64,000 nt of DNA from an uncultured Prevotellaceae bacterium (GTDB taxonomy: Bacteria > Bacteroidota > Bacteroidia > Bacteroidales > Bacteroidaceae), in assembly GCA_900315095.1 (NCBI GenBank), contig OMXS01000015.1, forward strand, positions 62,001 through 126,000, given 5' to 3'. The notes under the pieces are model-generated. The model was not told the DNA's origin and ran no database searches. It worked only from the letters and a program-made list of their open reading frames with translations. Position numbers and translations under genes: made by a program. Below are positions 9,205-63,533 of this stretch, in pieces. Positions within the stretch are counted from its first letter, which is position 1. The number at the start of each line of letters is the position of its first letter.

Positions 9205-10046
9205 CTTTTCGCCTGTCGGGCGATTGGTGCACCTCTCATGGTGCCGTTTGTATACCAGCGGGGAGCGAACGGTATATGTTTGAGGGGGCGGAAGGTATAT
9301 GTTTCGAGTGCCGGCCGGTATATTATAAGGCGGCGAAAGGTATATGTTTCGGGGAGTATGGCCGTGGGCGGTTCGGCATCTCCTCGCGGGAGGCATGGTG
9401 GGGGATTTGCTGTTACAAAATTACAAAATAATTTTCATTTCTCCAAATTTCGCTTGGCTGAAACTGGCGAAAATCCACGAAGAAACCGCCCTTGAACTCT
9501 TAAAAAATATTAAATTTGTGATAGCTCACACGATACCAGTACATTGCGCGATTACGTATCGTAGCGTTTCAAGAAAATTGCGAGGCGGAGTGTTACGCTG
9601 TTACGGTATTACAGTTCTCGAGAAGGGTATTCCTATATCCAAATTCTACTTTATATTTATATATATTATAATATATATATAAATATAACTATCATTTTGA
9701 CTTTCGTACTATCTTTTTTGGAACTGTAACACTGCAACACTGCAACACATCGTGTGCTATTCTGCCGAATTGCACGTTTTACTAAATAATGTGTAAATTC
9801 CCGTACTACTAATAGCCCCTGTCATTTGTCATAGGATGAGTGTTTATATCAAAAATGGTTTGAGTTATGTGCTTCATTCTCTGATTCTTGCTAACTCGCT
9901 AATAACATGGGAATTATAAGAAGATTAAAAGTATTTAACGGTTATACTACGGTTTCTTAACGTATTTTCACAAGTTACGGATGGCTGTTTTTTGGCAATC
10001 TAGAAAATATTTTGTATCTTTGCAATACAAACGTCGGGATGACGCA
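9205..10046 (+). repeat. Dispersed non-coding element, copy A
   Basis: One of three related elements in the window (B at 25264, C inverted at 57459). The order is: hairpins TCGCC-TGTC-GGGCGA and GCACC-TCTCAT-GGTGC; four to five degenerate GGTATATGTTT-containing units; the hairpin CTCCTCGCGGGAG; direct repeats of GTTACGCTGTTAC type; an AT-only palindrome near 9650-9690; repeated CAACACTG; and a promoter at 9991-10022 ending in the inverted repeat CGTCGGGATGACG. No ORF is conserved between copies. Homology with copy B continues about 40 bp further right. It could be a MITE-like element, a structured RNA or a portable promoter. Confidence 0.85.
9991..10022 (+). promoter_or_regulatory. Outward promoter at the end of element A
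   Basis: TTTG (9991-9994), 20 nt, TATCTTTG (10015-10022) is an exact Bacteroidetes promoter, followed by CAATACAAACGTCGGGATGACG. It points at the xylE-like gene 280 bp away. The same layout is kept in copies B and C. Confidence 0.7.
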
Positions 10047-10170
10047 AGGGGGCGGAAACTTTGCTGGGACAGCAGGGACAATTAAGAAGGGAAGGGGCCG
10101 TTATTTCGCTTTTTTGTTCCAAAATAGTAAAAAAATCAGTTTATTGTTGTCGGATTGTCAATTAAATTTG

Positions 10171-10178
10171 TACTTTTG
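10171..10178 (+). promoter_or_regulatory. -7 box upstream of the xylE-like gene
   Basis: TACTTTTG, downstream of the element-A promoter and about 125 nt before the ATG at 10303. No clear -33 box at the best distance, so it may need an activator or be secondary to the element promoter. Confidence 0.4.
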
Positions 10179-10302
10179 CAATCGATTTACAATGTAACAT
10201 GTATTTCGGCATTACCAATACGGGAATTTGACACATGGAAAGCATTTCCTAATCGCCTAAAATTACAAGGTATTATTAACAATAAACAATTCAATTACTA
10301 AA

Positions 10303-11778
10303 ATGAAACAAAACGAAACAGGCAGCAGAGCCTATCTCATTTCCATCGTGATGGTGGCAGTGCTTGGCGGTTTGCTCTTCGGTTATGACACCGCCGTTAT
10401 CTCGGGTGCAGAAAAAGGTCTTCAGGCGTTCTTCATGGAAGCAAAGGATTTTGCATACACTGATGGCTGGCATGGATTCACATCGGCAAGCGCCTTGATT
10501 GGATGTATCATCGGTTCGGCACTTTCTGGTTTCCTGGCCACAAACCTTGGCCGCAAGAAGTCGCTTATAATCGCGGGCATCCTTTTCTTCATCTCCGCTC
10601 TGGGGTCTATGGATCCTGAGTTCCTGTTCTTCAATTATGGTGAGCCTAAGTTCTCGCTGCTCATCATGTTCAACATCTACCGTGTCATTGGCGGTATCGG
10701 CGTAGGACTTGCTTCTGCTATCTGCCCGATGTATATCGGAGAGGTGGCGCCGTCGAACATTCGAGGCATGCTCGTTTCTTGGAACCAGTTTGCCATCATC
10801 TTCGGCCAGCTTGTCGTTTATTTCGTGAACTTCTTCATCCTGGGCGACCATATCCAGCCGTTAGTTGAGGAGATGGGCAAGGGCATTGCCGCCATCACCC
10901 CGGCTGCACAATGGACTGTCACCACCGGATGGCGATATATGTTCGGTTCGGAGGCAGTGCCTGCAGGACTCTTCGCCCTGCTCATCTGCTTCGTGCCTGA
11001 GACACCGCGTTACCTCGTTTCAATTGGCCAAGACGAGAAGGCTCTTGGTATCCTGTCGAAAATCAACGGCTCGGGCAAGGCTCAGCAGATTCTGCAGGAC
11101 ATCAAGGACACTATGGTTGTGAAGACAGAGAAGCTGATGACCTACGGCTTCATGTGCATCTTCATCGGTATCATGCTCAGCGTGTTCCAGCAGGCTGTGG
11201 GTATCAATGCTGTGCTCTACTATGCTCCGCGCATCTTCGGTGATATGGGTATGGATAACCCGATGATTCTTACCGTGTTCATGGGTATCATCAACATCTC
11301 GTTCACGCTTGTGGCTGTGTTCACCGTGGAGAAATGGGGACGCAAGCCGTTGCTTATCTGTGGCTCGCTCGGTATGGCTCTGGGTGCTTTCGGCGTGGCC
11401 CTCACCTTCGGTAACGAGAGTCTTGCGCTCGTAACAGCTGCGTCGCTGCTCGTCTACAGCGCCTCGTTCATGTTCTCTTGGGGACCAATCACATGGGTGC
11501 TCATCGCGGAAATCTTCCCCAACACCATTCGTGGCGGTGCCGTTGCAATCGCCGTGGCATTCCAGTGGATTTTCAACTTCATCGTGTCAAGCACCTTCGT
11601 GCCGATGTTCAACATGCACCTCACCGAGGGCGATGACTTCGGTCACTGGTTCACATACGGTCTCTACGGCATCATCTGCGTCATTGCAGCCATCTTCGTT
11701 TGGCGCCTTGTGCCTGAGACAAAGGGCAAGACTCTCGAGGATATGACCGCCCTCTGGCGCAACCGCATGAAGAAATAA
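10303..11778 (+). CDS. xylE: XylE-like sugar:proton symporter (MFS)
   Basis: A 491-aa, twelve-helix transporter of the MFS sugar porter family, closest in look to the D-xylose:H+ symporter XylE. Signatures are GGLLFGYDTAVISGAEKG in helix 1, NLGRKKSLI after helix 2, CPMYIGEVAPSNIRG, PETPRYLVS in the middle loop, GRKPLLICG, and PETKGKTLEDM at the C-terminus. Helix 7 carries QQAVGINAVLYYAP, the sugar-contacting motif. Xylose is the likely substrate, but other aldoses cannot be excluded, and no xylose catabolic genes are nearby. Element A lies directly upstream. Confidence 0.88.
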   Translation: MKQNETGSRAYLISIVMVAVLGGLLFGYDTAVISGAEKGLQAFFMEAKDFAYTDGWHGFTSASALIGCIIGSALSGFLATNLGRKKSLIIAGILFFISALGSMDPEFLFFNYGEPKFSLLIMFNIYRVIGGIGVGLASAICPMYIGEVAPSNIRGMLVSWNQFAIIFGQLVVYFVNFFILGDHIQPLVEEMGKGIAAITPAAQWTVTTGWRYMFGSEAVPAGLFALLICFVPETPRYLVSIGQDEKALGILSKINGSGKAQQILQDIKDTMVVKTEKLMTYGFMCIFIGIMLSVFQQAVGINAVLYYAPRIFGDMGMDNPMILTVFMGIINISFTLVAVFTVEKWGRKPLLICGSLGMALGAFGVALTFGNESLALVTAASLLVYSASFMFSWGPITWVLIAEIFPNTIRGGAVAIAVAFQWIFNFIVSSTFVPMFNMHLTEGDDFGHWFTYGLYGIICVIAAIFVWRLVPETKGKTLEDMTALWRNRMKK

Positions 11779-48774: not shown

Positions 48775-48834
48775 TTTTACCTTAAACTAGAATAATTAAT
48801 GTTTAAAGGGGAGTGTCAATTGTGATACCAATTG

Positions 48835-48921
48835 AGTCTGTCGTTCATCCCTACGCCGGCATTACCCGGATCAGGTTTGAGGGTCTAATCTCAGCCCGCC
48901 CACGGCGGACACCCCTTAACT
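48835..48921 (-). promoter_or_regulatory. TPP riboswitch
   Basis: On the minus strand the conserved blocks read GGGGTGT, GGCTGAGATT, GACCC, ACCTGATCCGGGTAATGCCG and GCGTAGGGA, in order and at normal spacing, which is the thi-box aptamer. A TPP-bound state would repress the downstream receptor and PnuT. Just downstream (48817-48836) lies a TCAATTG/CAATTGA hairpin, and 48806-48816 (plus strand AAAGGGGAGTG) is complementary to the aptamer's own start, so an expression platform with alternative pairing is likely. Confidence 0.93.
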
Positions 48922-49032
48922 TACATTTTGTAAATCGGGTGCAAAAGTATATAAAAATCTTAATATATCCAAATCCTGACACATAAAGATTTTGTGCATT
49001 TCATCAAGGCAATAAAAATCTTATACAAATAA

Positions 49033-49064
49033 TTTGTTTTATATGGCGAAATGATGTATTTTTG
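49033..49064 (+). promoter_or_regulatory. Promoter of the Kelch-AraC gene
   Basis: TTTG (49033-49036), 20 nt, TATTTTTG (49057-49064). It overlaps the TTG at 49062, so translation must begin later. Confidence 0.75.
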
Positions 49065-49073
49065 CAAAACGTA

Positions 49074-50810
49074 ATGAAAACTGTTGTTTTACGAATGAAA
49101 TTAAATCTCCTGCATCATAGAAGGCTGTTGCTCTCGAAAAGCATGTTGCTTTTCTTCTTCCTCATGGCTGTTTTGCCCATGATGGCGCAAAAGCTGTCTG
49201 TGACTGCATGTCCTCAGCAGAAGATTGAAGCGGTGCGCCTGCCCGACCTTAATGTTCCGCGAGGCGGCCATTGTGCTTTCTTTGTGAATGGCGAGGTGGT
49301 TCTCGTAGGCGGTCACACCACAGGCTTCGTGCCAACCGCCACTGCCGAGTATCTGAAAGACGGCAAATGGCACCTGGTAAAGACAGCATACGAACACGAC
49401 GACGGTTTCGGTGTCGTTTTGAAGTCGGGCAAAGTGCTCATAGCGGGTGGTCACGAGAAGAGCCTAGGCATCGGCCAAACCTTCCCTACAGAGTATTACA
49501 ACCCTGCAGACCATAGTTTCGAGGGCTTCGGTTGTCTTGACAAGAAGCGTGCGTTGGCTCAGGTGCTGGAGATGGACAACGGCAATGTGGTCATTGCAGG
49601 CAACTGGTATCATACCGACGGCATAGAGATTTTCGACGGGAAGGCATCATTCACTCTTGTCAACGACATAGACTCGGGCATGGTGAGGCCGTACATCTTC
49701 CAGACTTCTGCAGACGACGTAGTGGTCTTCGGCGACCAGAACAATTACGGCAAACGCAGGCAGAATCTTGCATACCGTATTAAGGGCGAGTCTTTCAGCG
49801 TGCCTCTTTTCGACGAGTGGCATCCTTATATGTGTTTTGAAAGGAAGAGCGACAGCGAGAGTTTTGTTGGTGACAGGCAAAAGGACGTTTATGCCTATCT
49901 CTTCCCTGTGAAGAATGATGACGGACAATATGCAATAGCCAAGATGAATAGCGTGAAAGGCCAGTCTGCGCCAGACTTCTCGCTTCTTCCTGCAAAGCAT
50001 TCGATACCTACGAAAAGCCAGTGGGGCAAGGAGATATTCTATTCCAGTTCGATAATGGTTGACAAGAACACCGGCAAGGGGTATCTAACGGGAATTGATA
50101 AAGACAGTCGCTTCTATGTGCTATGTATTAATAATGTACGCGCTGAGAAAGACATTACCTACACACTTTATTATACCGACCCGCTCGAAGATGCCGGTTG
50201 TGCGACGCCAGTGCTTACCGATGACGGTAACATCGTTATTGCTGGCGGCATCACCGATTCCAATTTCTATCCCAAGTCATCTGCATACATGCTCTGCTTG
50301 AGTGGCAAGAATGCGGCGTTCACAAGGTCGGCAGGATATTTGCCCTGGATTGTTCTGGGGGCTCTGTTGCTCTTGTCCGCCGTGCTTTATAAAGTTCTAT
50401 TCCGCAAGAAGCAAGAGGAGGCTCCCGTAGAGGAACCGTCCGATGCATCCGATGGCAACGAGACGGAGAAACATCTTGTTCAGCGCATCTGCACATTGAT
50501 GGACACCGAACAGCCATATCTGCTTAGTGACCTTAAACTCTCGGATGTCTCGGCGATGCTCTCCACCAACAGCCGCTATGTATCCGAGGCCATCAAGAAC
50601 CAGCGCGGATGCTCGTTCACACAGTTCGTCAACGGCTATCGTGTGGAGTATGCCAAGAAGATGCTCCTCAGCCAGCCCGACCGCAAGATGACCGAAGTGA
50701 TTTCTGCATCCGGATTCTCTGGCGAGTCTTCATTCTTCCGCATTTTCAAGAGTTTCACGGGTCTTACACCAGGCGAATGGATAGCGCAGAACAATAAAGG
50801 CGAGGCATGA
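49074..50810 (+). CDS. Membrane-spanning Kelch-type sensor with cytoplasmic AraC DNA-binding domain
   Basis: A one-protein sensor and regulator. Start ATG 49074 gives 578 aa; ATG 49095 is also possible. An uncleaved-type or signal-anchor start (LLLSKSMLLFFFLMAVLPMMAQK) is followed by about 370 residues of Kelch-like blades with repeated VVLVGGHT, VLIAGGHEK, VVIAGNW, VVVFGD and IVIAGGI strands, a likely beta-propeller in the periplasm. One membrane helix is LPWIVLGALLLLSAVLYKVLF, followed by RKKQ. The last 100 residues form an AraC-type double helix-turn-helix (LSDVSAMLSTNSRYVSEAIKNQRG and MTEVISASGFSGESSFFRIFKSFTGLTPGEW). It is placed to control the adjacent secreted array. It lacks a histidine kinase, so it differs from hybrid two-component regulators. 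Confidence 0.85.
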   Translation: MKTVVLRMKLNLLHHRRLLLSKSMLLFFFLMAVLPMMAQKLSVTACPQQKIEAVRLPDLNVPRGGHCAFFVNGEVVLVGGHTTGFVPTATAEYLKDGKWHLVKTAYEHDDGFGVVLKSGKVLIAGGHEKSLGIGQTFPTEYYNPADHSFEGFGCLDKKRALAQVLEMDNGNVVIAGNWYHTDGIEIFDGKASFTLVNDIDSGMVRPYIFQTSADDVVVFGDQNNYGKRRQNLAYRIKGESFSVPLFDEWHPYMCFERKSDSESFVGDRQKDVYAYLFPVKNDDGQYAIAKMNSVKGQSAPDFSLLPAKHSIPTKSQWGKEIFYSSSIMVDKNTGKGYLTGIDKDSRFYVLCINNVRAEKDITYTLYYTDPLEDAGCATPVLTDDGNIVIAGGITDSNFYPKSSAYMLCLSGKNAAFTRSAGYLPWIVLGALLLLSAVLYKVLFRKKQEEAPVEEPSDASDGNETEKHLVQRICTLMDTEQPYLLSDLKLSDVSAMLSTNSRYVSEAIKNQRGCSFTQFVNGYRVEYAKKMLLSQPDRKMTEVISASGFSGESSFFRIFKSFTGLTPGEWIAQNNKGEA

Positions 50811-50851
50811 CAATGTCTTGAATATCTCCTATTTTAGGGCGTTTTATATAG

Positions 50852-50891
50852 AAAACGACTACCAAAACATGAATTGGTAGTCGTTTTTCGT
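50852..50891 (+). terminator. Terminator of the Kelch-AraC gene
   Basis: AAAACGACTACCAA / TTGGTAGTCGTTTT with an 8-nt loop, followed by TCG. Confidence 0.85.
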
Positions 50892-50965: not shown

Positions 50966-51955
50966 ATGAAAAAGATTCTATTATCTATCATCGCACTATG
51001 TTGCACGCTTATGGCGGGTGCACAGGACTCCGACCAAATCAGTGCCGTACTTCAGGTAGAAGACCAAACGCCACAAGTCTTTTTTGGCGCCAGTGCTCTG
51101 AAGAGCGCTATTGAGGCAGCCCCTGATCATGGTGGTGTCATCACGCTCACCTCAGGGCAGTTTAATGCAGCCGATATCACCAAGGACGTTATTATCTACG
51201 GTGCCGGTTTCGAGACCGATGCCGAGAAAGGTGTCTTCACGACCAGTATCCGTGGCGATATCAATGTTAACCTGCCAGAAGGCATTTCCGCACCCCATGG
51301 AATTTTTGTTGAGGGCATCTGGGTAACAGGAAACATCAATGTTAAGTCAGCCGTAGACGGCTTCACGCTGTCAAAGAGCAGTTTCAACAACATTGATTTC
51401 GATGCTCCTGCCACCCGTTGCGTGATAACGCAGTCGTATGTCAGGGCTGAGATTATCGACGGTTTTGACCTTTATGTGCAAAACAGTTATGTAAAAGAAC
51501 GTGTTATGGTTATGGATGACGCGAGTTACATACGGCTTGACCATTGTATTTTAACAAGAAATTATGATGATACCTATATGAGTTATACAAATAGAATGCG
51601 TTACAATTGCTCCAACTGCATTGTAACTAACACCAGACCTATGAATATTCAGACATACAACTACTGCATAATGACCGGTGTCAGCAATCTTAATGGTTAT
51701 TCAGCAACTGCCAATAATTATTTCATAAGTATTGCAGACGTTTTTGACGACGGCATAAACAACGCCACCTATAGTGAAGAACGCACATTTGAATTGAAAA
51801 ACCCAACTACCTACATAGGCAGCGACGGCAAGCCTATCGGACCATCGGGAGGAATAGGATGGAACAAGATTCCGAGCACGCCGATAGTCAAGAACCTCGA
51901 CGCAACTGTCAATGGCGCCAGCCTTGAAGTTGACTACGATGCAGAGGTTAGATAA
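50966..51955 (+). CDS. Secreted parallel beta-helix protein, paralogue 1
   Basis: A 329-aa protein with signal peptide MKKILLSIIALCCTLMAGAQ. The mature part carries ALKSAIEAAPDHGGVITLTSG, a pectate-lyase-like start, then repeating strands (HGIFVEGIWVTGNINV, GFTLSKSSFNNIDF, CVITQSYVRAEIID, LDHCILTRN, CIVTNTRPMN) that fit a right-handed beta-helix. It ends GSDGKPIGPSGG...NLDATVNGASLEVDYDAEVR. I see no catalytic residues of known lyases and no T9SS-like tail. It is the first of four tandem paralogues with near-identical signal sequences, each followed by a gap of about 20-35 bp. The role is unknown; surface adhesion or glycan binding is inferred from fold only. Confidence 0.82.
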   Translation: MKKILLSIIALCCTLMAGAQDSDQISAVLQVEDQTPQVFFGASALKSAIEAAPDHGGVITLTSGQFNAADITKDVIIYGAGFETDAEKGVFTTSIRGDINVNLPEGISAPHGIFVEGIWVTGNINVKSAVDGFTLSKSSFNNIDFDAPATRCVITQSYVRAEIIDGFDLYVQNSYVKERVMVMDDASYIRLDHCILTRNYDDTYMSYTNRMRYNCSNCIVTNTRPMNIQTYNYCIMTGVSNLNGYSATANNYFISIADVFDDGINNATYSEERTFELKNPTTYIGSDGKPIGPSGGIGWNKIPSTPIVKNLDATVNGASLEVDYDAEVR

Positions 51956-51978
51956 GAATAATATAAAAAAACAACAAT

Positions 51979-52965
51979 ATGAAAAAGATTCTATTATCAA
52001 TCATCGCATTATGCTGCACATTGGTAGCGGGAGCACAGAACGAGATTATGACCGTTGTGCTTCAGCATGGCAACGATGTGAGCACTTTCACGGGTGCAAA
52101 TGCCTTTATCAATGCAAATGCCCAGGCAGTTGACGGTGATGTTATTACACTTTCAGCAGGTGCATTTAATGTTTCTGATATCACGAAATCCATCTCCGTC
52201 TATGGCGCAGGGTTTGAAAAGGACGCGAACACCAGTACTGAGGTGTCAAAAATCAACGGTCAGTTGAATTTGGGAGTCTCAGGAGGCGAAACCCTCGCCA
52301 ATATCCACTTGGAAGGGATAAGTTTCGGTGCCGCTGTCAACACTAATGTGCCGCTGGAGGGGTTCTTTATGGAAAAGTGCTACGTTAACGGCAACGTCAA
52401 CGTAGGTGAAAACTCGAACACGATGATAAGGAACTGTGTCATTACAGGGGCTATCGCTGGAGGCGACAAAATGGCCAACAACTGTATCATACAAAACTGC
52501 TATGTAGGAGGTGCCATAAACACATTTAACGTGAGCAGCAGCGTCAAGATAGACCATTGCATCACTTGCAATTTCGTGGGGCCTTACTTCTGTACTAACA
52601 GCATCTTCACGTATTATTGGGTCGGTGCATATTATGACCGTGCGGCATTTGCCAACACAGAAGGAGCGGTTGTTCACAACTGTATCTTCAGGAATTTCGA
52701 TTATAACAATCAGGACAAGAATGATTTCCAAAATTGCTTTGCTGTTGACATAAAGAGCATTTTCTCTGATGCGCAAAATGCCACCTATTCTGCTGCACGA
52801 ACCTTCGAAATCCAGCAGCCTGCAACATGGATAGGCAACGACGGCCAGGAGATAGGCATTCGCTATGGATGGAGCAAGGTGCCGAAAATTCCTGCCGTGA
52901 AGAACTTGACCACCACGGTTAGCGGTGAAAACCTTGAAGTAGACTACGATACAGTAGTAAGATAA
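51979..52965 (+). CDS. Secreted parallel beta-helix protein, paralogue 2
   Basis: A 328-aa protein with nearly the same signal peptide as its neighbour (MKKILLSIIALCCTLVAGAQ), and the start NAFINANAQAVDGDVITLSAGAFNVSDITKSISVYGAGFEKD. The coils contain many N-C-x-I and V-H-N-C-I-F units (MIRNCVITGAI, NCIIQNCYVGGAIN, KIDHCITCNFV), typical of beta-helix stacking with inward Asn/Cys ladders. It ends ...VSGENLEVDYDTVVR, aligning to the ends of paralogues 1, 3 and 4. It lacks the PSGG motif (GNDGQEIGIRYGWSKV instead). The middle is diverged from the other copies while both ends are conserved. Confidence 0.82.
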   Translation: MKKILLSIIALCCTLVAGAQNEIMTVVLQHGNDVSTFTGANAFINANAQAVDGDVITLSAGAFNVSDITKSISVYGAGFEKDANTSTEVSKINGQLNLGVSGGETLANIHLEGISFGAAVNTNVPLEGFFMEKCYVNGNVNVGENSNTMIRNCVITGAIAGGDKMANNCIIQNCYVGGAINTFNVSSSVKIDHCITCNFVGPYFCTNSIFTYYWVGAYYDRAAFANTEGAVVHNCIFRNFDYNNQDKNDFQNCFAVDIKSIFSDAQNATYSAARTFEIQQPATWIGNDGQEIGIRYGWSKVPKIPAVKNLTTTVSGENLEVDYDTVVR

Positions 52966-52990
52966 GAATAAAAATAAAAACTAAAATAAT

Positions 52991-54010
52991 ATGAAAAAGA
53001 TTCTGTTATCAATCATCGCGCTCTGCTGCACAATGGCGGTGAGTGCGCAAGGCACAGACGAAATCAGTGCCGTTCTTCAGCATGGGGAAGAAGTGAGTGT
53101 ATACAAAGGCAGCACTGGCCTCCAGCAGGCTTATGCCGCTGCATCCGATGGCGACGTGATAACCCTGAGCAAAGGCACGTTTTACGCAGTAAACATAGAA
53201 AAGTCTCTGACCATTTACGGCGCGGGTTTCGAGGCTAACGAAGAAACGAAAACAGACATAACCACCATCAACGCGACATTAAACGTGGGTAAGGCCGACG
53301 ATGTCATCGAAGGTTTTCACATTGAGGGCGTTAAAATTAACGGCAATCTGGCGTTCACTCAAAAACTGAAGAACTCCACGGTACAGAGATGCTACATTAC
53401 GAGCCACTTGACTTTCGCGAAAGACATAGAGAGCGTGAGAGTGAAGCAATGCCGTGTTGGAGGTGACTTGTCTGGTTCGAAGACCGTTTTGGCCAATGGT
53501 TTGCTAATCACTAATTGCTATGTGTGGGGACTGATAAATTATTTCAGCAACGAGAGCATTGTGAACATAGACCATTCTTTCATAGGGTATCAATACAATA
53601 CTTACTATGATTATAATGATTATAACAATTATGCGCAGTTCTTATGGACGAACAGCATCATCTTCAACCGCGGTCCAAACTATCGTATGGCAACAGGTAA
53701 CTGCGCTACGGTGAAAAACTGCATCGTTGTCAATGGCGGCGGAGGAATTCGCGACAATAATATAATCGAGAACTGCTATTATGTAGACCTCGCCAATCTT
53801 TTTGCCGATGGCACAGATGCCGCCTATGCAGAGGACCGCACATGGAAACTGCAAGACGAAACCACCTATAAAGGCACAGACGGCACTCCTATCGGTCCGT
53901 CGGGCGGTTTTGGCTGGTACAAGGTGCCCTCAACACCTTACGTCAAGGACCTGAACGCTACAGTCAACGGCACCAACCTCGATGTTGACTACGAAGCAGA
54001 TGTAAGATAA
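52991..54010 (+). CDS. Secreted parallel beta-helix protein, paralogue 3
   Basis: A 339-aa protein, signal peptide MKKILLSIIALCCTMAVSAQ, then GLQQAYAAASDGDVITLSKGTFYAVNIEKSLTIYGAGFEAN. The coils carry CYITSHLTF, QCRVGGDLS, NCYVWGLIN, NIDHSFIG and VKNCIVVNGGGGI. A Tyr/Asn/Asp-rich turn (YNTYYDYNDYNNYAQF) interrupts the coils near residue 200. It ends GTDGTPIGPSGGFGWYKVPSTPYVKDLNATVNG...DYEADVR. It follows paralogue 2 by 25 bp. Confidence 0.82.
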   Translation: MKKILLSIIALCCTMAVSAQGTDEISAVLQHGEEVSVYKGSTGLQQAYAAASDGDVITLSKGTFYAVNIEKSLTIYGAGFEANEETKTDITTINATLNVGKADDVIEGFHIEGVKINGNLAFTQKLKNSTVQRCYITSHLTFAKDIESVRVKQCRVGGDLSGSKTVLANGLLITNCYVWGLINYFSNESIVNIDHSFIGYQYNTYYDYNDYNNYAQFLWTNSIIFNRGPNYRMATGNCATVKNCIVVNGGGGIRDNNIIENCYYVDLANLFADGTDAAYAEDRTWKLQDETTYKGTDGTPIGPSGGFGWYKVPSTPYVKDLNATVNGTNLDVDYEADVR

Positions 54011-54031
54011 TAATATAAAAACTATAATGAC

Positions 54032-55060
54032 ATGAAAAAGATTCTATTATCAATCATCGCGCTTTGCTGCACAGTTGTGGCAGGGGCGCAGAACTCGTCG
54101 CAGATTGTCAGTGCAATACTCCAGACTGATGATGAAACTACACAGTTTTATGGAGCAGATGCTTTGAAGAGCGCATATAATGCCGCTGCACAAACCGGTA
54201 GCGTGATAACACTGACTTCAGGACAGTTTAACTTTTCTGTGGATATCAAGAAATCGGTGGCAATATATGGTGTTGGATTTGAGAACGATGCCACACCAGG
54301 AGTGCAAAGAACTATTATAAATGGAATGGTAGGCTTTAAGGCAGATGCAGATGGCAACACTGTGCAGAATGCTAGGTTGGAAGGTGTTTATGTGAATAGC
54401 AGTATTTATGTGAACCATTCTGAAAATCTCACTATTGCCAAATGCCAGTTCACTGATTTGGTAATCGAAGGAACCGGTGTTGGAGGCATGCTAGTGCGTC
54501 AGTGTTATTTCAGAAATTTCGATGGAAGTAATTACCAGATAGAGGGTATTACTTTAAAGAACAACTATATTTCTGGAGAGATAGGGAGAATATCGGCAGA
54601 TAGCCAAGTGTTGTTTGATCATAACATTCTTTCTTATGGCGGCCGTGATAGATATGCACATGCTTGCGCGTCTTATACTAATAATATTATACTAAGTCAA
54701 GGATGGTATGGTTCGGGAGTAGCAGATAACTCTTATGCTGCCAATAATGCATTTGCTATAGGCACTATCCCAGAAAGTGTTACTTCTGAAAACAACAAGT
54801 TCGGTGTTAATTTCTCTACCTTTTTTAGTGATGGTGCTACAAATGCCAATTATACCACCGATCGGACATTTACCATAGCAGATCCAGATACTTACAAGGG
54901 AACTGACGGAACGCCAATTGGAGTTGTTGGCGGTACCTATCCCTGGTATAAGCAGCCTGAAATACCATACGTGAAGGATCTGAATGCAACAGTCAGCGGC
55001 ACTGATCTCAACGTTTCATACGAGGCTGGCGTAAGAACTACTAATCCTCCAACAGAATAA
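54032..55060 (+). CDS. Secreted parallel beta-helix protein, paralogue 4
   Basis: A 342-aa protein, signal peptide MKKILLSIIALCCTVVAGAQ, then ALKSAYNAAAQTGSVITLTSGQFNFSVDIKKSVAIYGVGFEND, closest to paralogue 1 at this end. Coils include LEGVYVNSSIYVNHSENLTIAKCQF, VRQCYFRNFDG and LFDHNILSYGG. It ends ...LNATVSGTDLNVSYEAGVRTTNPPTE, nine residues longer than the other copies. Its base composition in the middle is more AT-rich than in paralogues 1-3, hinting at a separate origin of that part. The next gene begins 5 bp after its stop. Confidence 0.82.
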   Translation: MKKILLSIIALCCTVVAGAQNSSQIVSAILQTDDETTQFYGADALKSAYNAAAQTGSVITLTSGQFNFSVDIKKSVAIYGVGFENDATPGVQRTIINGMVGFKADADGNTVQNARLEGVYVNSSIYVNHSENLTIAKCQFTDLVIEGTGVGGMLVRQCYFRNFDGSNYQIEGITLKNNYISGEIGRISADSQVLFDHNILSYGGRDRYAHACASYTNNIILSQGWYGSGVADNSYAANNAFAIGTIPESVTSENNKFGVNFSTFFSDGATNANYTTDRTFTIADPDTYKGTDGTPIGVVGGTYPWYKQPEIPYVKDLNATVSGTDLNVSYEAGVRTTNPPTE

Positions 55061-55065
55061 GACTT

Positions 55066-56973
55066 ATGAAAAGGATAAGATATTTGCTGATAGCGGCGGC
55101 AGCCTTGATAAGCACCGCGGCGGCAGCACAGACAAACGACATTGTAGAACGGAAATACTGGCTGGACGGAGACATCACCCAAGCACAGGACTTGGCACCT
55201 GACCACGCCAGCATAGACATCTCGGCGCTGAAGCCGGGAATACACTCGCTTTCCGTTCGTGTGAAGGACGCTGGGGGCTTGTGGAGCTCACAGGTGGCAA
55301 GGTACTTCATCAAGCCATATGCCGACAACAGCGCAAGCACCAATAGCATAGTGCAACACCAGTACTGGATTGACGGTAATCTGCAAGCAGCGGTCACTTC
55401 GGGCTCGAAGCCACAGCCCATCTCTGTCTCTTCGCTGAACGCAGGCCTCCACACGTTCACAGTGCGCGTGCAGGACCAGACAGGCACATGGAGCTCGCAA
55501 GTGGCAAAATGCTTCATAAAGCCGTATACCGAAATCAGCGTTGGCGACAAGGAGATAGTGAAGCACCAGTACTGGATTGACGGCAAACTGGAGGCGCAGG
55601 TGACTCAGGGCGACCCGATAAGGCTCATCGGCATCGAAGGGCTGAACCCCGGTCTGCACTCGCTTACCGTGCGCGTGAAGGACAACACCGGAGTGTGGAG
55701 TTCGCAGGTGGCCAAGTACTTCATCAAGCCTTATACCGAAATCAGCGTTGGCGACAAGGAAATAGTGAAGCACCAGTACTGGATTGACGGCAAACTGGAG
55801 GCACAGGTGACTCAGGGCGACCCGATAAGACTCATCGACATCGAAGGACTGAAGTCTGGTCTGCACTCGCTCACCGTGCGCGTGCAGGACAACACCGGAG
55901 TGTGGAGTTCGCAGGTGGCCAAGTACTTCATCAAGCCGTATACCGAAATCAGCGTGGAAGACAAGGAGATAGTTCAACACCAGTACTGGATTGACGGCAA
56001 CGTGGATGCCATAGTGACTCTGAATCAGAAGGACCCGATAGACGTCATCGACATCGAAGGACTGAAGCAAGGACTGCATTCGCTCACCGTACGCGTGAAG
56101 GACAACACCGGAGTGTGGAGTTCGCAGGTGGCGAAATATTTCATCGTGAAGGGTGATGAGACGGTGGAGGAGGCCACCATCACACGTTACATGTACTGGT
56201 TCGACGATGATACGGACGGCTTCAAGACTGGCCCGCTCACCTCGGTCACAGGCACGATGGACATCGATATCAGCGACGTGGAGGCAGGCACGCACACTCT
56301 GTGGTGGCGTTGCGGCGACTCCAAGGGCGCGTGGAGCGAGGCTCGTTCGGTGACTTTCGAGAGCCGTAGTTTCTACGACTACACCGTACCGGAATCGGGA
56401 GTAGGCACATTCTCTGCCGATGTCAACCTCGAACTGCCCGACGGACTGCAGGCTCATTTCTGCACCTACTTGAAGGAGGTGGACGAGGGACTGGCCATCA
56501 AGATTATCGGCATCGACGGCAACGTGATTTCTGCCAATACAGGTATGCTGATGAGCGGAACAGGCGGCGAGACCTACCGACTGAAGTACACCGCAGAGCC
56601 GGGAGCAACCAACGAGAGCAACAAACTGGTGGCCGTGGTTGAGTCGGAGCATATACCAGCCACCAACGGACTCTACACCAACTTCATGATGAAGGGCGGA
56701 AGGTTCGTCAAGATTCTTGAGGAGGACGAGTCGGTAATGATGCCCGCACACCGCGCTTACCTGCCGCTGCTCACCGCAGAGGTGGCTAATGCCAATGCCA
56801 TTGGCATCATCTGGGACGACGACACCGTGACAGGACTCGACGGCGTTGCTGCAGACGACAACCGCACCAATCCTAACCTCGATGGCACCATCTACAACCT
56901 GCAGGGACAGAAGGTTGACCACCCGACACGAGGAATCTATATCATAAACGGAAAGAAAGTTGTAATAAAATAA
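55066..56973 (+). CDS. Secreted repeat protein with T9SS-like C-terminal segment
   Basis: A 635-aa protein with signal peptide MKRIRYLLIAAAALISTAAAAQ. Six repeats of about 69 aa follow, each with (Q/K)YW(I/L/F)D(G/D), then an ITLxxGLHSLTVRVKDNTGVWSSQVAKYFI-like strand pair. Repeats 3 and 4 (55528-55941) are nearly identical at the DNA level, in 207-bp units. The last 180 residues hold a non-repeat domain and end in TIYNLQGQKVDHPTRGIYIINGKKVVIK, which resembles the C-terminal sorting segment of Bacteroidetes T9SS cargo. It would place the protein on the outer surface. It follows paralogue 4 directly and is probably expressed and exported with it. Confidence 0.82.
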   Translation: MKRIRYLLIAAAALISTAAAAQTNDIVERKYWLDGDITQAQDLAPDHASIDISALKPGIHSLSVRVKDAGGLWSSQVARYFIKPYADNSASTNSIVQHQYWIDGNLQAAVTSGSKPQPISVSSLNAGLHTFTVRVQDQTGTWSSQVAKCFIKPYTEISVGDKEIVKHQYWIDGKLEAQVTQGDPIRLIGIEGLNPGLHSLTVRVKDNTGVWSSQVAKYFIKPYTEISVGDKEIVKHQYWIDGKLEAQVTQGDPIRLIDIEGLKSGLHSLTVRVQDNTGVWSSQVAKYFIKPYTEISVEDKEIVQHQYWIDGNVDAIVTLNQKDPIDVIDIEGLKQGLHSLTVRVKDNTGVWSSQVAKYFIVKGDETVEEATITRYMYWFDDDTDGFKTGPLTSVTGTMDIDISDVEAGTHTLWWRCGDSKGAWSEARSVTFESRSFYDYTVPESGVGTFSADVNLELPDGLQAHFCTYLKEVDEGLAIKIIGIDGNVISANTGMLMSGTGGETYRLKYTAEPGATNESNKLVAVVESEHIPATNGLYTNFMMKGGRFVKILEEDESVMMPAHRAYLPLLTAEVANANAIGIIWDDDTVTGLDGVAADDNRTNPNLDGTIYNLQGQKVDHPTRGIYIINGKKVVIK

Positions 56974-56976
56974 GCA

Positions 56977-57222
56977 ATGAAAAAGAAATATATTTCACCG
57001 GAAATAATAGAGGTAACCGACTTTGGCAATCCGCTGCTAGACATCGGAACCACCATCCCAGTGGATACTGGCGGCAGCGGAGAAAGCCAGTCGGGCGCCG
57101 AGGGCAAGCGGCACAACGATGTTGTTGACGAGGATGAAGAACCAACCGACAGCATCATCAAGTACCGCCGCGACCCGATGGACTTCATCCCCAAATCGTT
57201 CACAAAGGTGTGGGAAGACTGA
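56977..57222 (+). CDS. Small acidic protein ending the secreted-protein operon
   Basis: An 81-aa protein, MKKKYISPEIIEVTDFGNPLLDIG followed by a Gly/Ser-rich linker (TGGSGESQSGAEG) and an acidic part (VDEDEEPTDS) ending DFIPKSFTKVWED. No signal peptide. Starts of this MKKxYxxPxxxxV type are common in short Bacteroidetes proteins of unknown role near surface-protein genes. It begins 4 bp after the repeat protein, so it is cotranscribed. A peptide precursor or a chaperone-like helper are both guesses. Confidence 0.7.
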   Translation: MKKKYISPEIIEVTDFGNPLLDIGTTIPVDTGGSGESQSGAEGKRHNDVVDEDEEPTDSIIKYRRDPMDFIPKSFTKVWED

Positions 57223-57236
57223 TTCCCGAACTTGTC

Positions 57237-57269
57237 AGACGGGCTGAATCATTCAGCCCGTCTTTTTTT
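57237..57269 (+). terminator. Terminator of the secreted-protein operon
   Basis: A perfect 13-bp stem AGACGGGCTGAAT / ATTCAGCCCGTCT with a 1-nt centre, then a run of T. Confidence 0.85.
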
Positions 57270-60620: not shown

Positions 60621-63533
60621 TTAATATCCGAACACCTCTTCTGTGGTGAGGCGTTTCACGGGTGCAATCTTCTCGAGAGCATCCATGTCGAGGTTGTTCT
60701 CATCGCCAAGGATGATGTACCGGTACTGCTTGTTGGCCATGAGATTCTTCTCGTAGTCGACAATGTCCTTTAGCGTCACCTTCGACAGGTCTTGATAAAT
60801 CTTGCCGTTAAGGTCGTAGTCGATGCCCAGACGCTTGGCGTTTAGGTAACTGTAGATGATGCTCATCTTAGTGGTGCGCATGCTGGCCAGCTGCTTTGTC
60901 AGGGCGTCCTTGGCAATGTTGAAGCCGTTCTCGCTGGCAGGCATCTCGTTGAGAATCTCGTTGTAGTGGTTGATGCAGTCCATCATCTTGTCGTTCTGCG
61001 TGATAATATGTGTCATGAACGACTCCTTGCGTCCCTTCACGCTGGGGCGAGAGTAGAAGGCGTAGGCATTGTATGCAAGTCCGCGTGTCTCGCGCATCTC
61101 CTGGAACACTATGCCGTTCATGCCGCCACCGAAATATTCGTTGAAGAGTGCGCGTATGGCTGCCTCGTCGGGGTTCCAGTCGCGCCCCTCGTTGTGATAC
61201 ATGCGCATGTAGATGTTCTTGGCGTCGTATGGAGCAAGCAGCACCTCGTTCTTGTCGGCCCTCTGGTCGAGATACGGGTTGTTCTGCGGAACGCTGGCGA
61301 GTTGTTTCGCCGTGCTGTGCAGTTTCTTGACGTTGTCTGCAACGGTCTTCTCGTCTGCAGGTCCGTAGTAGAGTACGCTATGTTCATACTGAGACAGATT
61401 CTTCAGCAGGTCGATGAACGCCTGTGGGTTTGCGCTCTTCAGTTCCTGTTCCGTCACGAGGTCGCGGTAGGCGTTGTGAGCGCCTTGTGTGCCGTAGGCA
61501 TAGAGGTATGCGAAATAAGACTGCTGGCTCTTCTTTGCATCGTCGCGTTTCTTCAATGTCATGTCCACCAGCTGGTCGTATGCCTCCTTGTCGGCCTTTG
61601 CATGCATGAACAGGTCGTCAAGCAATGTCATGGCCTGTGTCATGTTCTCGCTAAGTCCTGAAAGGCTTACGGTGAGGTTTTCCTCTCCCACGTTGATGCT
61701 CCAGTCGCATCCCAGTTCATAGAACTTCTGCTTGATGTCGGTGGCTGTCATGCGGTCGGTGCCGAGGTATTGTATGTAGTCGGCTGCAATGTCATACCGC
61801 TTGTCTGCGCTCTGTCCGAACTCATATCGGTAGGCAAGGTTGAACAATCCGTTGGTGGTATTCTTAACATAGTAGAGCGGCATGCCTTTCTTCATCTGCG
61901 AGGAAGAGAAGTCTGTCTTGTAATCTACGAACTTTGGTTGTATGGGTTCCACCTGCGAGTCTTGTATGTCCTTCACGAACTGGCTCATCTGGTCGCGGTT
62001 TGCCTGGATAGGAGTGATTATTGGCTTGTCGATTTTCTTCTGCAGAGAGTCGATGCCTTGTTTCTTGAACACGGTGACATAGCCGTCGGTGAAGAAATTG
62101 TTGGCAAAGGCCACCAACTCAGGCTTGGTGATGCGTTCGATGCGTTCGATGCGGCCCACCATCTGTTTCCAGTCAATCTCGTTGATGAAGGCATCGACGA
62201 ACTGGTCGGCACGTCCGCCGTTGCTCTCCAGCAACTGGTAGTAACTTCGTTTCTTGTTGTTGATGATGCTTGGCAGCAGGTTGTCGGGGAAGTCGCCCTT
62301 CTTCAGTTTGTCAATCTCGGCAAGCATCAGGCTTCTCACCTCTTCGAGGCTTTGTCCCTGCTTTGGCGTTCCCATAAGGAAGAAGCCGCCGTGGTCGTGC
62401 ATCAGTTCGCTGGTGCCTATAGCACGCTGCACCTTCATTGTCTGGTTGAGGTTGAGGTCGAAGAGTCCTGCGCGTCCGTTGCTCAGCACGTCCTCCAGCA
62501 GTTGGAGGGTGTCGGCCTGCAACGCGTTGGCCTCCTTTGTTCGCCATGCCATCCACACCTGTTCTGCCTCTTGTCCGATAACGGTTGAGTCCTTCGGTGT
62601 CGTCAGCGGTGTCAGCGGAGCGAATGTGGGTTGTGTTACATCGTCTCCCGGTTTCCAGTCGCCGAAATACTTGTCGATAAGGGCAATGGTCTTTTCGGGG
62701 TCTAGGTCGCCCGCCATGCAGATGGCAACATTGTTAGGAACATACCATTTGTTGAAATAGTTCTTGATGTTCACTATCGACGGGTTCTTCAGGTGCTCCT
62801 GAGTGCCGATGGTGGTCTGTGTTCCGTAAGGGTGGTTGGGCCACAGCATCTTGCTTATGGTGTAGAAGAGTTTGCGTTGGTCGCTGCTGAGTCCGATGTT
62901 ATACTCCTCATAGACAGCCTCCAGTTCGGTGTGAAAGCCGCGAATCACCATGTTCTTGAAACGGTCTGACTGTATTTTTGCCCAGTTCTCCACCTCGTTC
63001 GACGGGATGTCCTCGGTGTAGCAAGTCACATCGTTGCTGGTGTATGCGTTAGAGCCTTCTGCACCGATGGCTGCCATCAGTTTGTCATACTCGTTGGGTA
63101 TGAAGTACTGTGCAGCCAGTTGCGAGATGCTGTCAATCTCGTGGTATTTCTGACGGCGCAGTTCGGGGTCGGTTACGAGGCGGTATTCTTCATATCGCTT
63201 CTCAATCTCGTCGAGAAGCGGTGCCTCTGCTTGTGGGTTGTTCGTGCCGAATTGCTTGGTGCCCTTGAACATCAGGTGTTCCAAATAATGCGCCAAGCCT
63301 GTTGTCTCTGAAGGGTCGTTCTTAGAGCCTGTGCGAACGGCAATGAACGTCTGAATGCGCGGTTTCTCCTGATTGACAGAGATGTACACTTTCAAGCCGT
63401 TGTCGAGGGTGTAGATGCGAGTCTGCATCAGGTCGCCCGGCACGGTTGCATACTTGTAATCCTTTGCTGATAAGGACAAAGGTAAAAAAGTAAGAAGGTA
63501 GAAAAGCAGTATCCTACCGAATGTCTTTTTCAT
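60621..63533 (-). CDS. Secreted M16 zinc metalloprotease (pitrilysin family)
   Basis: A 970-aa protein with a signal peptide (about 1-23), and the inverted zinc motif HYLEH at residues 82-86 (GLAHYLEHLMFKGTKQFG) in the first of four M16 repeats; a distal Glu for zinc is expected around 160. Later M16 domains (about 220-430, 560-750 and 770-930) lack the zinc motif, as in normal full-length M16 proteins. It is exported to the periplasm or surface and degrades small proteins or peptides. The partial gene upstream is 18 bp away and may be its operon partner. Confidence 0.92.
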   Translation of the reverse strand: MKKTFGRILLFYLLTFLPLSLSAKDYKYATVPGDLMQTRIYTLDNGLKVYISVNQEKPRIQTFIAVRTGSKNDPSETTGLAHYLEHLMFKGTKQFGTNNPQAEAPLLDEIEKRYEEYRLVTDPELRRQKYHEIDSISQLAAQYFIPNEYDKLMAAIGAEGSNAYTSNDVTCYTEDIPSNEVENWAKIQSDRFKNMVIRGFHTELEAVYEEYNIGLSSDQRKLFYTISKMLWPNHPYGTQTTIGTQEHLKNPSIVNIKNYFNKWYVPNNVAICMAGDLDPEKTIALIDKYFGDWKPGDDVTQPTFAPLTPLTTPKDSTVIGQEAEQVWMAWRTKEANALQADTLQLLEDVLSNGRAGLFDLNLNQTMKVQRAIGTSELMHDHGGFFLMGTPKQGQSLEEVRSLMLAEIDKLKKGDFPDNLLPSIINNKKRSYYQLLESNGGRADQFVDAFINEIDWKQMVGRIERIERITKPELVAFANNFFTDGYVTVFKKQGIDSLQKKIDKPIITPIQANRDQMSQFVKDIQDSQVEPIQPKFVDYKTDFSSSQMKKGMPLYYVKNTTNGLFNLAYRYEFGQSADKRYDIAADYIQYLGTDRMTATDIKQKFYELGCDWSINVGEENLTVSLSGLSENMTQAMTLLDDLFMHAKADKEAYDQLVDMTLKKRDDAKKSQQSYFAYLYAYGTQGAHNAYRDLVTEQELKSANPQAFIDLLKNLSQYEHSVLYYGPADEKTVADNVKKLHSTAKQLASVPQNNPYLDQRADKNEVLLAPYDAKNIYMRMYHNEGRDWNPDEAAIRALFNEYFGGGMNGIVFQEMRETRGLAYNAYAFYSRPSVKGRKESFMTHIITQNDKMMDCINHYNEILNEMPASENGFNIAKDALTKQLASMRTTKMSIIYSYLNAKRLGIDYDLNGKIYQDLSKVTLKDIVDYEKNLMANKQYRYIILGDENNLDMDALEKIAPVKRLTTEEVFGY

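Follow-up and report, generated by a model that had tools for sequence, protein, structure and literature searches.

In type Vb two-partner secretion, an exported beta-helix protein is encoded beside a dedicated outer-membrane barrel partner. The cargo of the type IX secretion system (T9SS) of Prevotella intermedia includes proteins of one to three pectin lyase domains, and its short CTD is described as 40-55 residues long, with motifs B, D and E, and as preferring PT/GI for cleavage (PMC11969387). Type B CTD cargo partnered by PorP/SprF is described in PMC9143113, and the Y_Y_Y domain (PF07495) is known from hybrid two-component sensors (PMC5121618).

The locus described here lies within a 64,000-nucleotide stretch of DNA (the window) from a rumen-type Prevotella. 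The initial annotation had placed four secreted paralogues of 328-342 aa, a six-repeat protein and an 81-aa protein at 50966..57222, and this layout was borne out. All six genes are on the forward strand, namely the exported beta-helix protein BH1 (329 aa, 50966..51955), BH2 (328 aa, 51979..52965), BH3 (339 aa, 52991..54010) and BH4 (342 aa, 54032..55060), the repeat protein YYY (55066..56973) and the small protein SML (81 aa, 56977..57222), with spacers of 23, 25, 21, 5 and 3 nt between them. BH1 was assigned from its ORF and structural model, BH3 and BH4 from their ORFs and a tree, and SML from its ORF. An intrinsic terminator was identified at the 3’ end of the operon (57237..57263, forward strand), with a 12-pair stem followed by a T run (-20.8 kcal/mol, z -6.30).

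Comparison with the systems above showed both likenesses and differences. As in type Vb secretion, an exported BH protein is encoded beside a dedicated partner, but here the partner, the next gene in 68 of 74 arrays, has Ig-like repeats and a T9SS tail and is not an outer-membrane barrel. The 46-residue tail of YYY, with Y-N-L-Q-G, GIYI and NGKKVVIK, is like that of P. intermedia short-CTD cargo; in contrast, the beta-helix proteins of P. intermedia bear the CTD themselves according to PMC11969387, whereas here it is borne by the separate partner YYY. Relatives of YYY at loci L117, L119 and L120 resemble the type B CTD cargo with a PorP/SprF partner described in PMC9143113, unlike the window YYY, whose tail is short and CTD-like and which no PorP/SprF gene adjoins. 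The repeats of the window YYY match Y_Y_Y (PF07495) at 3.9e-16, but in contrast to the hybrid two-component sensors of PMC5121618, the protein consists of tandem repeats, is predicted to be exported and has no propeller or kinase match. Compared to the pectin lyase-like superfamily (PL6 alginate lyase BcAlyPL6, 7dmk; pectin methylesterases), the BH proteins possess neither an above-cut-off curated family nor a visible conserved active-site cluster, and add a C-terminal hairpin outside the matched region. RemZ of Flavobacterium was considered as a precedent for CTD-less cargo and discarded, because PMC10994853 describes it as a CTD-bearing type A substrate. No description of the BH-YYY pair was found in titles and abstract openings among the matches listed in open-licence PubMed Central.

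The row of four BH genes beside a tagged YYY, the pairing of such genes in distant Bacteroidota and the swap of at least one BH gene give the locus the look of a surface system with exchangeable heads. Our preferred reading, to which we give about an even chance, is that of a two-partner surface system in which the BH proteins would be the heads, a T9SS-exported YYY the anchor, and exchange the means by which the heads are diversified.

Pairing of the BH and YYY genes

Within the genus, a profile of the BH proteins matched 53 of the 201 genomes (E<=1e-3). Arrays were drawn from the stronger BH matches of the genus and of later searches and counted as stand-alone BH genes (ORF <=460 aa, >=280 profile positions), with the duplicates L039, L040, L162 and L164 removed. 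Due to these stand-alone-only criteria and the removal of duplicates, the resulting 74 arrays do not include L056, the long-chain proteins from L045 and L167, L121 or L122. YYY was found directly after the BH array in 68 of the 74, with the other six consisting of arrays at contig edges (L066, L165, L166 and L168), one in which an extra BH ORF precedes YYY (L119) and one in which a 193-aa ORF does so (L123). The majority of arrays hold a single BH gene (62), with two genes in nine, three in one and four in two. Judged from these gene neighbourhoods, the pairing is a general feature and not just one of the window’s four-gene row. A correspondence of one BH head to each YYY repeat was also considered but was not supported (BH count against repeat number, rho 0.23, p 0.06, 68 arrays). 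No BH-YYY fusion genes were identified among the frames examined, and no BH gene was confirmed in viral contigs.

The reverse search with YYY (E<=1e-12) identified 32 of 151 genus genomes, 31 of them on the BH list (co-occurrence table 31, 10, 1, 109; Fisher 2e-22, taking genome handles to be identical between the two lists). In the single YYY genome off the BH list, only 139 nt of contig precede YYY. Inspection of two further YYY places for which no BH had been listed revealed one in each (E about 1e-14). Ten BH genomes fell below the strict YYY threshold; among three of these that were read, YYY was present in G041 (L074) and G142 (L057), and G013 (L066) is cut by a contig end.

Across the phylum, BH matches, mostly partial, were found in 50 of 395 genomes (own genome included), and the regions of 14 of the 49 others were read. 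Near full-length BH (>=288 of 332 positions) was identified outside the genus in 11 genomes, with YYY as the next gene in 10 and after the 193-aa ORF in L123; in L124, YYY follows a gene of 376 aa. YYY was absent beside the weaker BH-like genes of L121 (244 positions) and L122 (238 positions), the latter of which carries a CTD-like end of its own. All six of the YYY proteins scanned outside the genus possess a sorting domain, three of type A and three of type B (that of L119 lying below the NCBIfam cut-off and above the Pfam cut-off), and PorP/SprF was identified among the genes adjoining all three type B YYY genes (L117, L119, L120). As the pairing outside the genus comes with YYY of either type, these comparisons indicate that it is old and independent of the type of CTD.

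Export, fold and C-terminal ends of the two partners

YYY consists of six Y_Y_Y/Ig-like repeats, a linker region and a short T9SS-like CTD of 46 aa (56833..56970, forward strand), counted from the G of VT/GLDG. Its N-terminus (MKRIRYLLIAAAALISTAAAAQ) was judged by eye to be a Sec signal peptide. The T9SS-like tail that had been proposed for this repeat protein held up on comparison with the short CTD of P. intermedia, which it fits in length and motifs as described in PMC11969387; the putative cleavage site is VT/GL, 46 residues from the C-terminus, with Leu and not Ile at position +2. No curated CTD family was matched by the window YYY at E<=1. A genome-wide search with its tail yielded matches at 28 places at E<1e-3, counting the tail itself, and at 56 at E<=1, and the genome encodes the T9SS sortase PorU (1013.7 bits). 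With sorting-domain motifs B, D and E, a Sec signal and PorU in the genome, the window YYY is predicted to be T9SS cargo. It would be exported via this system and fixed at the surface by its CTD, where it may act as a stalk or scaffold; the structural model of YYY is of low confidence (pLDDT 56.2, pTM 0.21).

Variation was observed among the tails of other YYY proteins. A dockerin-like tail was seen by eye to replace the CTD-like tail in at least 12 of 68, with such tails found at L041, L042, L058, L061, L064, L067, L071, L072, L170 and L172, and a regex tally of the 68 gave 55 CTD, 10 dockerin-like and 3 other tails, with at least L041_1 and L041_3 misfiled. For L048, L052, L054 and for L170, L172, YYY proteins that start alike were observed to differ in their tails.

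The predicted export of the BH proteins was likewise supported, with signal peptides that end in A-Q. The model of BH1 is a confident right-handed parallel beta-helix with a C-terminal hairpin (pLDDT 89.1), and both model and structural matches place it in the pectin lyase-like beta-helix superfamily, which is defined by this fold. The modelled hairpin (strands 307-316 and 319-327) is formed by a conserved C-terminal block (codons 305-329; 51878..51952, forward strand); lying after residue about 305, it is not covered by the structural matches. This block is a constant element of stand-alone BH proteins, with 91 of 91 extending to profile position 326 or further of 332. Three long-chain proteins of the genus, tallied apart from six long proteins that belong to other families and match BH weakly and in part (L089, L098, L100, L102, L104, L105), were found to differ, as their BH domain ends early, at 308 (L056), 315 (L045) and 318 (L167, truncated at its start), and they possess a CTD-like tail at their end without the BH block. 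This swap of block for tail is the main hint that the block may stand in for an anchor. It is proposed that Sec exports the BH proteins and that their C-terminal hairpin could dock on the Ig-like repeats of YYY, bringing the heads to the surface or keeping them there.

The presence of the block in every stand-alone BH protein and its absence from the three CTD-tailed long proteins also look as if two signals alternate, which would suit the hairpin being a new, unrecognised T9SS export signal, with YYY merely co-expressed cargo. We consider this rather unlikely, as no T9SS sorting family was matched by any of the 67 BH proteins scanned (0 of 57 and 0 of 10, E<=0.01), the BH ends were seen by eye to be devoid of the CTD motifs given in PMC11969387, and YYY as the next gene would be left unexplained.

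Alternatively, the BH proteins could stay in the periplasm as a chaperone or gatekeeper for the export of YYY, a role that would agree with a Sec signal unaccompanied by a recognised outer-membrane signal and with a gene that is the near-obligate neighbour of a T9SS cargo gene. This is held to be unlikely because a highly variable and exchanged middle is unexpected in a periplasmic helper, and BH domains are found inside proteins with CTD-like tails. A weak match to the choice-of-anchor Q domain NF041518 was obtained for one of ten BH proteins outside the genus (4.1e-4, 20.5 bits, cut-off 25) and for none of the 57 in the genus set.

A structural search identified alginate lyases, pectin methylesterases and phage tailspikes among the nearest solved folds to BH1, and five named relatives, all Prevotella/Prevotellaceae metagenome assemblies, are rumen, buffalo-stomach (two of the five, water buffalo) or other uncultured Prevotella. 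Both observations would fit a role of the BH proteins on glycans of the diet or the host, as polysaccharide-active enzymes or as carbohydrate-binding proteins, with YYY as their anchor. However, column conservation across 57 members revealed no conserved catalytic-looking cluster in the BH variable region, though E116 and K137 are kept in more than 80% of them; no Pfam or NCBIfam family covers the BH proteins, and their family matches are all weak and below cut-off (one of ten with rhamnogalacturonidase at 4.8e-4), while a common fold does not show function. This reading is regarded as improbable. In the preferred two-partner surface system, the BH beta-helix would probably serve as a binding head rather than an enzyme.

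Exchange of BH sequences between species

Conserved ends and variable middles of the four paralogues had been taken in the initial annotation to suggest gene conversion or diversification, with a comparison of copy number and recombination in related strains suggested as a check. One genome per species was compared, and the number of BH genes was found to vary between species at the same site, between the TonB receptor and fumarase genes (four in the window, with 4, 3, 2, 2, and 1 plus a disrupted gene in the others). A tree placed the window’s four BH genes in four old lineages common to other species, and homogenising conversion among BH1-4 was therefore rejected as the main process. The first 60 nt of BH1-4 are 77-85% identical among themselves, compared to 77-92% to their L034 counterparts. 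The part of the earlier claim that stands is diversification, by exchange between species, for which the signal is strong in BH4 and suggestive in BH2.

BH4 shares 93.3% DNA identity with its L035 counterpart over the whole gene, against 57-84% for the neighbouring genes, with a 4-fold difference of 15.2% compared to 47.1% for YYY, 52.0% for fumarase and 51.1% for the peptidase. The identity is concentrated in a tract of 97.1% (54034..54915, forward strand; codons 1-295 of 342) that extends from the start codon to the conserved C-terminal block, the remainder of the gene showing 68.8%; the gain from this tract was 51.4, compared to at most 12.6 in block shuffles. These values are strong evidence that BH4 was swapped in from another species. 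For BH2 and L037, the 4-fold difference was 22.0% against 44-51%, and the middle of the gene (about 52042-52878) showed 91.7% identity with both ends at 80-82% (gain 16.5, at most 13.0 in block shuffles), suggestive of an exchange of the middle with a gene like that of L037, another Prevotella; no tract is seen between BH2 and L034. A disrupted BH3-like gene was also observed in L037 (about 9990-10920), between BH and YYY.

Further tracts were identified between L061 and L066 (codons 32-291 at 94.4%) and between L111 and L112 (codons 17-307, 100% vs 93.4%), and L048 and L170 share an entire BH gene at 96.1% with neighbours at 72.2% and 57.0%. The pattern is reversed for L113 and L115, where BH is less alike than the neighbouring YYY, and L078 is a chimera of paralogues, with the signal peptide from one L050 paralogue and the body from the other. 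Of 25 BH pairs with a middle identity >=75%, six had a middle that was more than 5 points above either end, with BH4/L035 not being among these because its tract takes in the signal peptide. Errors of metagenome assembly could yield single tracts, though those of 94-97% are harder to explain in this manner than the one of 100%.

Recombination is general in these genomes and not confined to BH, since YYY, the peptidase and the TonB receptor show signals too. Gains above block shuffles were obtained in 12 of 22 gene comparisons, YYY and the peptidase among them, with the largest found for the M16 peptidase against L038 (79.1; YYY against L038, 36.0), and the TonB receptor is unusually close between L035 and L037. 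A tract test on 13 pairs is non-discriminating on its own, as all 13 exceeded the shuffles, gene borders included. With recombination being general, what is special to BH is the position of the breaks and single genes that stand out from their neighbours. The gene of the M16-type peptidase (60621-63533 of the window) was observed to have a recombinant tract of its own against L038 (97.7% vs 84.8%). That the BH and YYY genes are ordinary unrelated secreted proteins, their pairing and exchange reflecting shared ancestry and general recombination, is very improbable despite the recombination of neighbouring genes, the common descent of the loci and L121 and L122 being without YYY, because the pairing holds elsewhere in the phylum, in families whose CTD types and regulators differ.

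In the two-partner surface system proposed here, homologous recombination would diversify the heads. With one break at the start of the gene or in the signal peptide and the other at the conserved C-terminal block, the body could be swapped while the export signal and the docking end remain compatible. We tentatively extend this to a possible, though doubtful, phylum-wide pathway, in which BH proteins without any recognised signal for outer-membrane export would reach the surface or be held there by hairpin docking on a T9SS-exported Ig-repeat partner, and recombination at the conserved ends would swap heads as cassettes between species, for example altering the ligand, the recognition of partners or the sensitivity to phages. 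If this is true, proteins devoid of a T9SS signal could be displayed by T9SS, giving a larger predicted surface proteome of Bacteroidota, and a phylum common in gut, rumen and environment would have a general means of swapping surface heads. The claim about the gene pair is itself precise and testable, and one of the two partners belongs to no Pfam or NCBIfam family.

Small proteins, regulator and expression

SML starts with MKKxYxxP and has an acidic tail, with no signal peptide evident. A search for the start pattern gave 11 matches in its own genome, nine of which are ORFs of 65-81 aa, and in 9 of 9 such small MKKxYxxP ORFs (L212-L222) the start lies 3-127 nt downstream of a gene whose end is T9SS CTD-like. 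Twelve other genomes gave 47 matches to the start pattern; the 27 loci read yielded about 17 similar ORFs, with six behind a CTD gene, and a stricter SML profile matched 11 of 201 genus genomes. By their positions behind CTD genes in its own genome and in the 12 others, SML-type proteins appear tied to T9SS cargo genes in the former and less regularly so elsewhere, and they may be partners of T9SS cargo. SML as a partner specific to BH was rejected, since similar genes trail T9SS cargo genes of other kinds in the same genome. A match to the KIS RiPP (0.01, below cut-off) was taken as chance. At L034 (16222-20280), a 1268-aa protein behind the operon was observed to share a stretch with YYY and to be followed by a second copy of SML.

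Upstream of BH1, REG (49062..50810, forward strand) encodes a Kelch-like propeller, a transmembrane segment (by eye) and an AraC-type HTH (HTH_18 4.1e-17; Kelch 2.7e-4, below cut-off). HTH and the Kelch-like region were its sole matches of note, with no kinase or receiver domains of a hybrid two-component protein found, and its true start is probably an ATG slightly downstream of the listed TTG. A Kelch-AraC homologue was identified directly upstream and in the same direction in 20 of the 74 BH arrays (the window included), with a divergent, shorter AraC-type gene directly upstream in seven of the 74. For L111-L115, a gene of about 240 aa lies upstream of the array, and is of LuxR type where scanned (L111). 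From its position, the adjacent AraC-type regulator probably sets the expression of the operon. A terminator-like hairpin with a T run was found between REG and BH1 (50851..50888, forward strand; -20.1 kcal/mol, z -6.15) and suggests that BH1 to SML form a transcript separate from REG; this hairpin is missing from the terminator scan, for which the loop limit was 8.

The Bacteroides promoter consensus is TTTG-N(16-24)-TANNTTTG. It was observed 19 times in the window (1-64000) compared to 1.7 times expected, with one occurrence just before REG and none before BH1. Furthermore, a TPP riboswitch (48831-48926, minus strand, 64.8 bits) was identified upstream of a TonB receptor and a further membrane-protein gene, a region that probably serves thiamine uptake.
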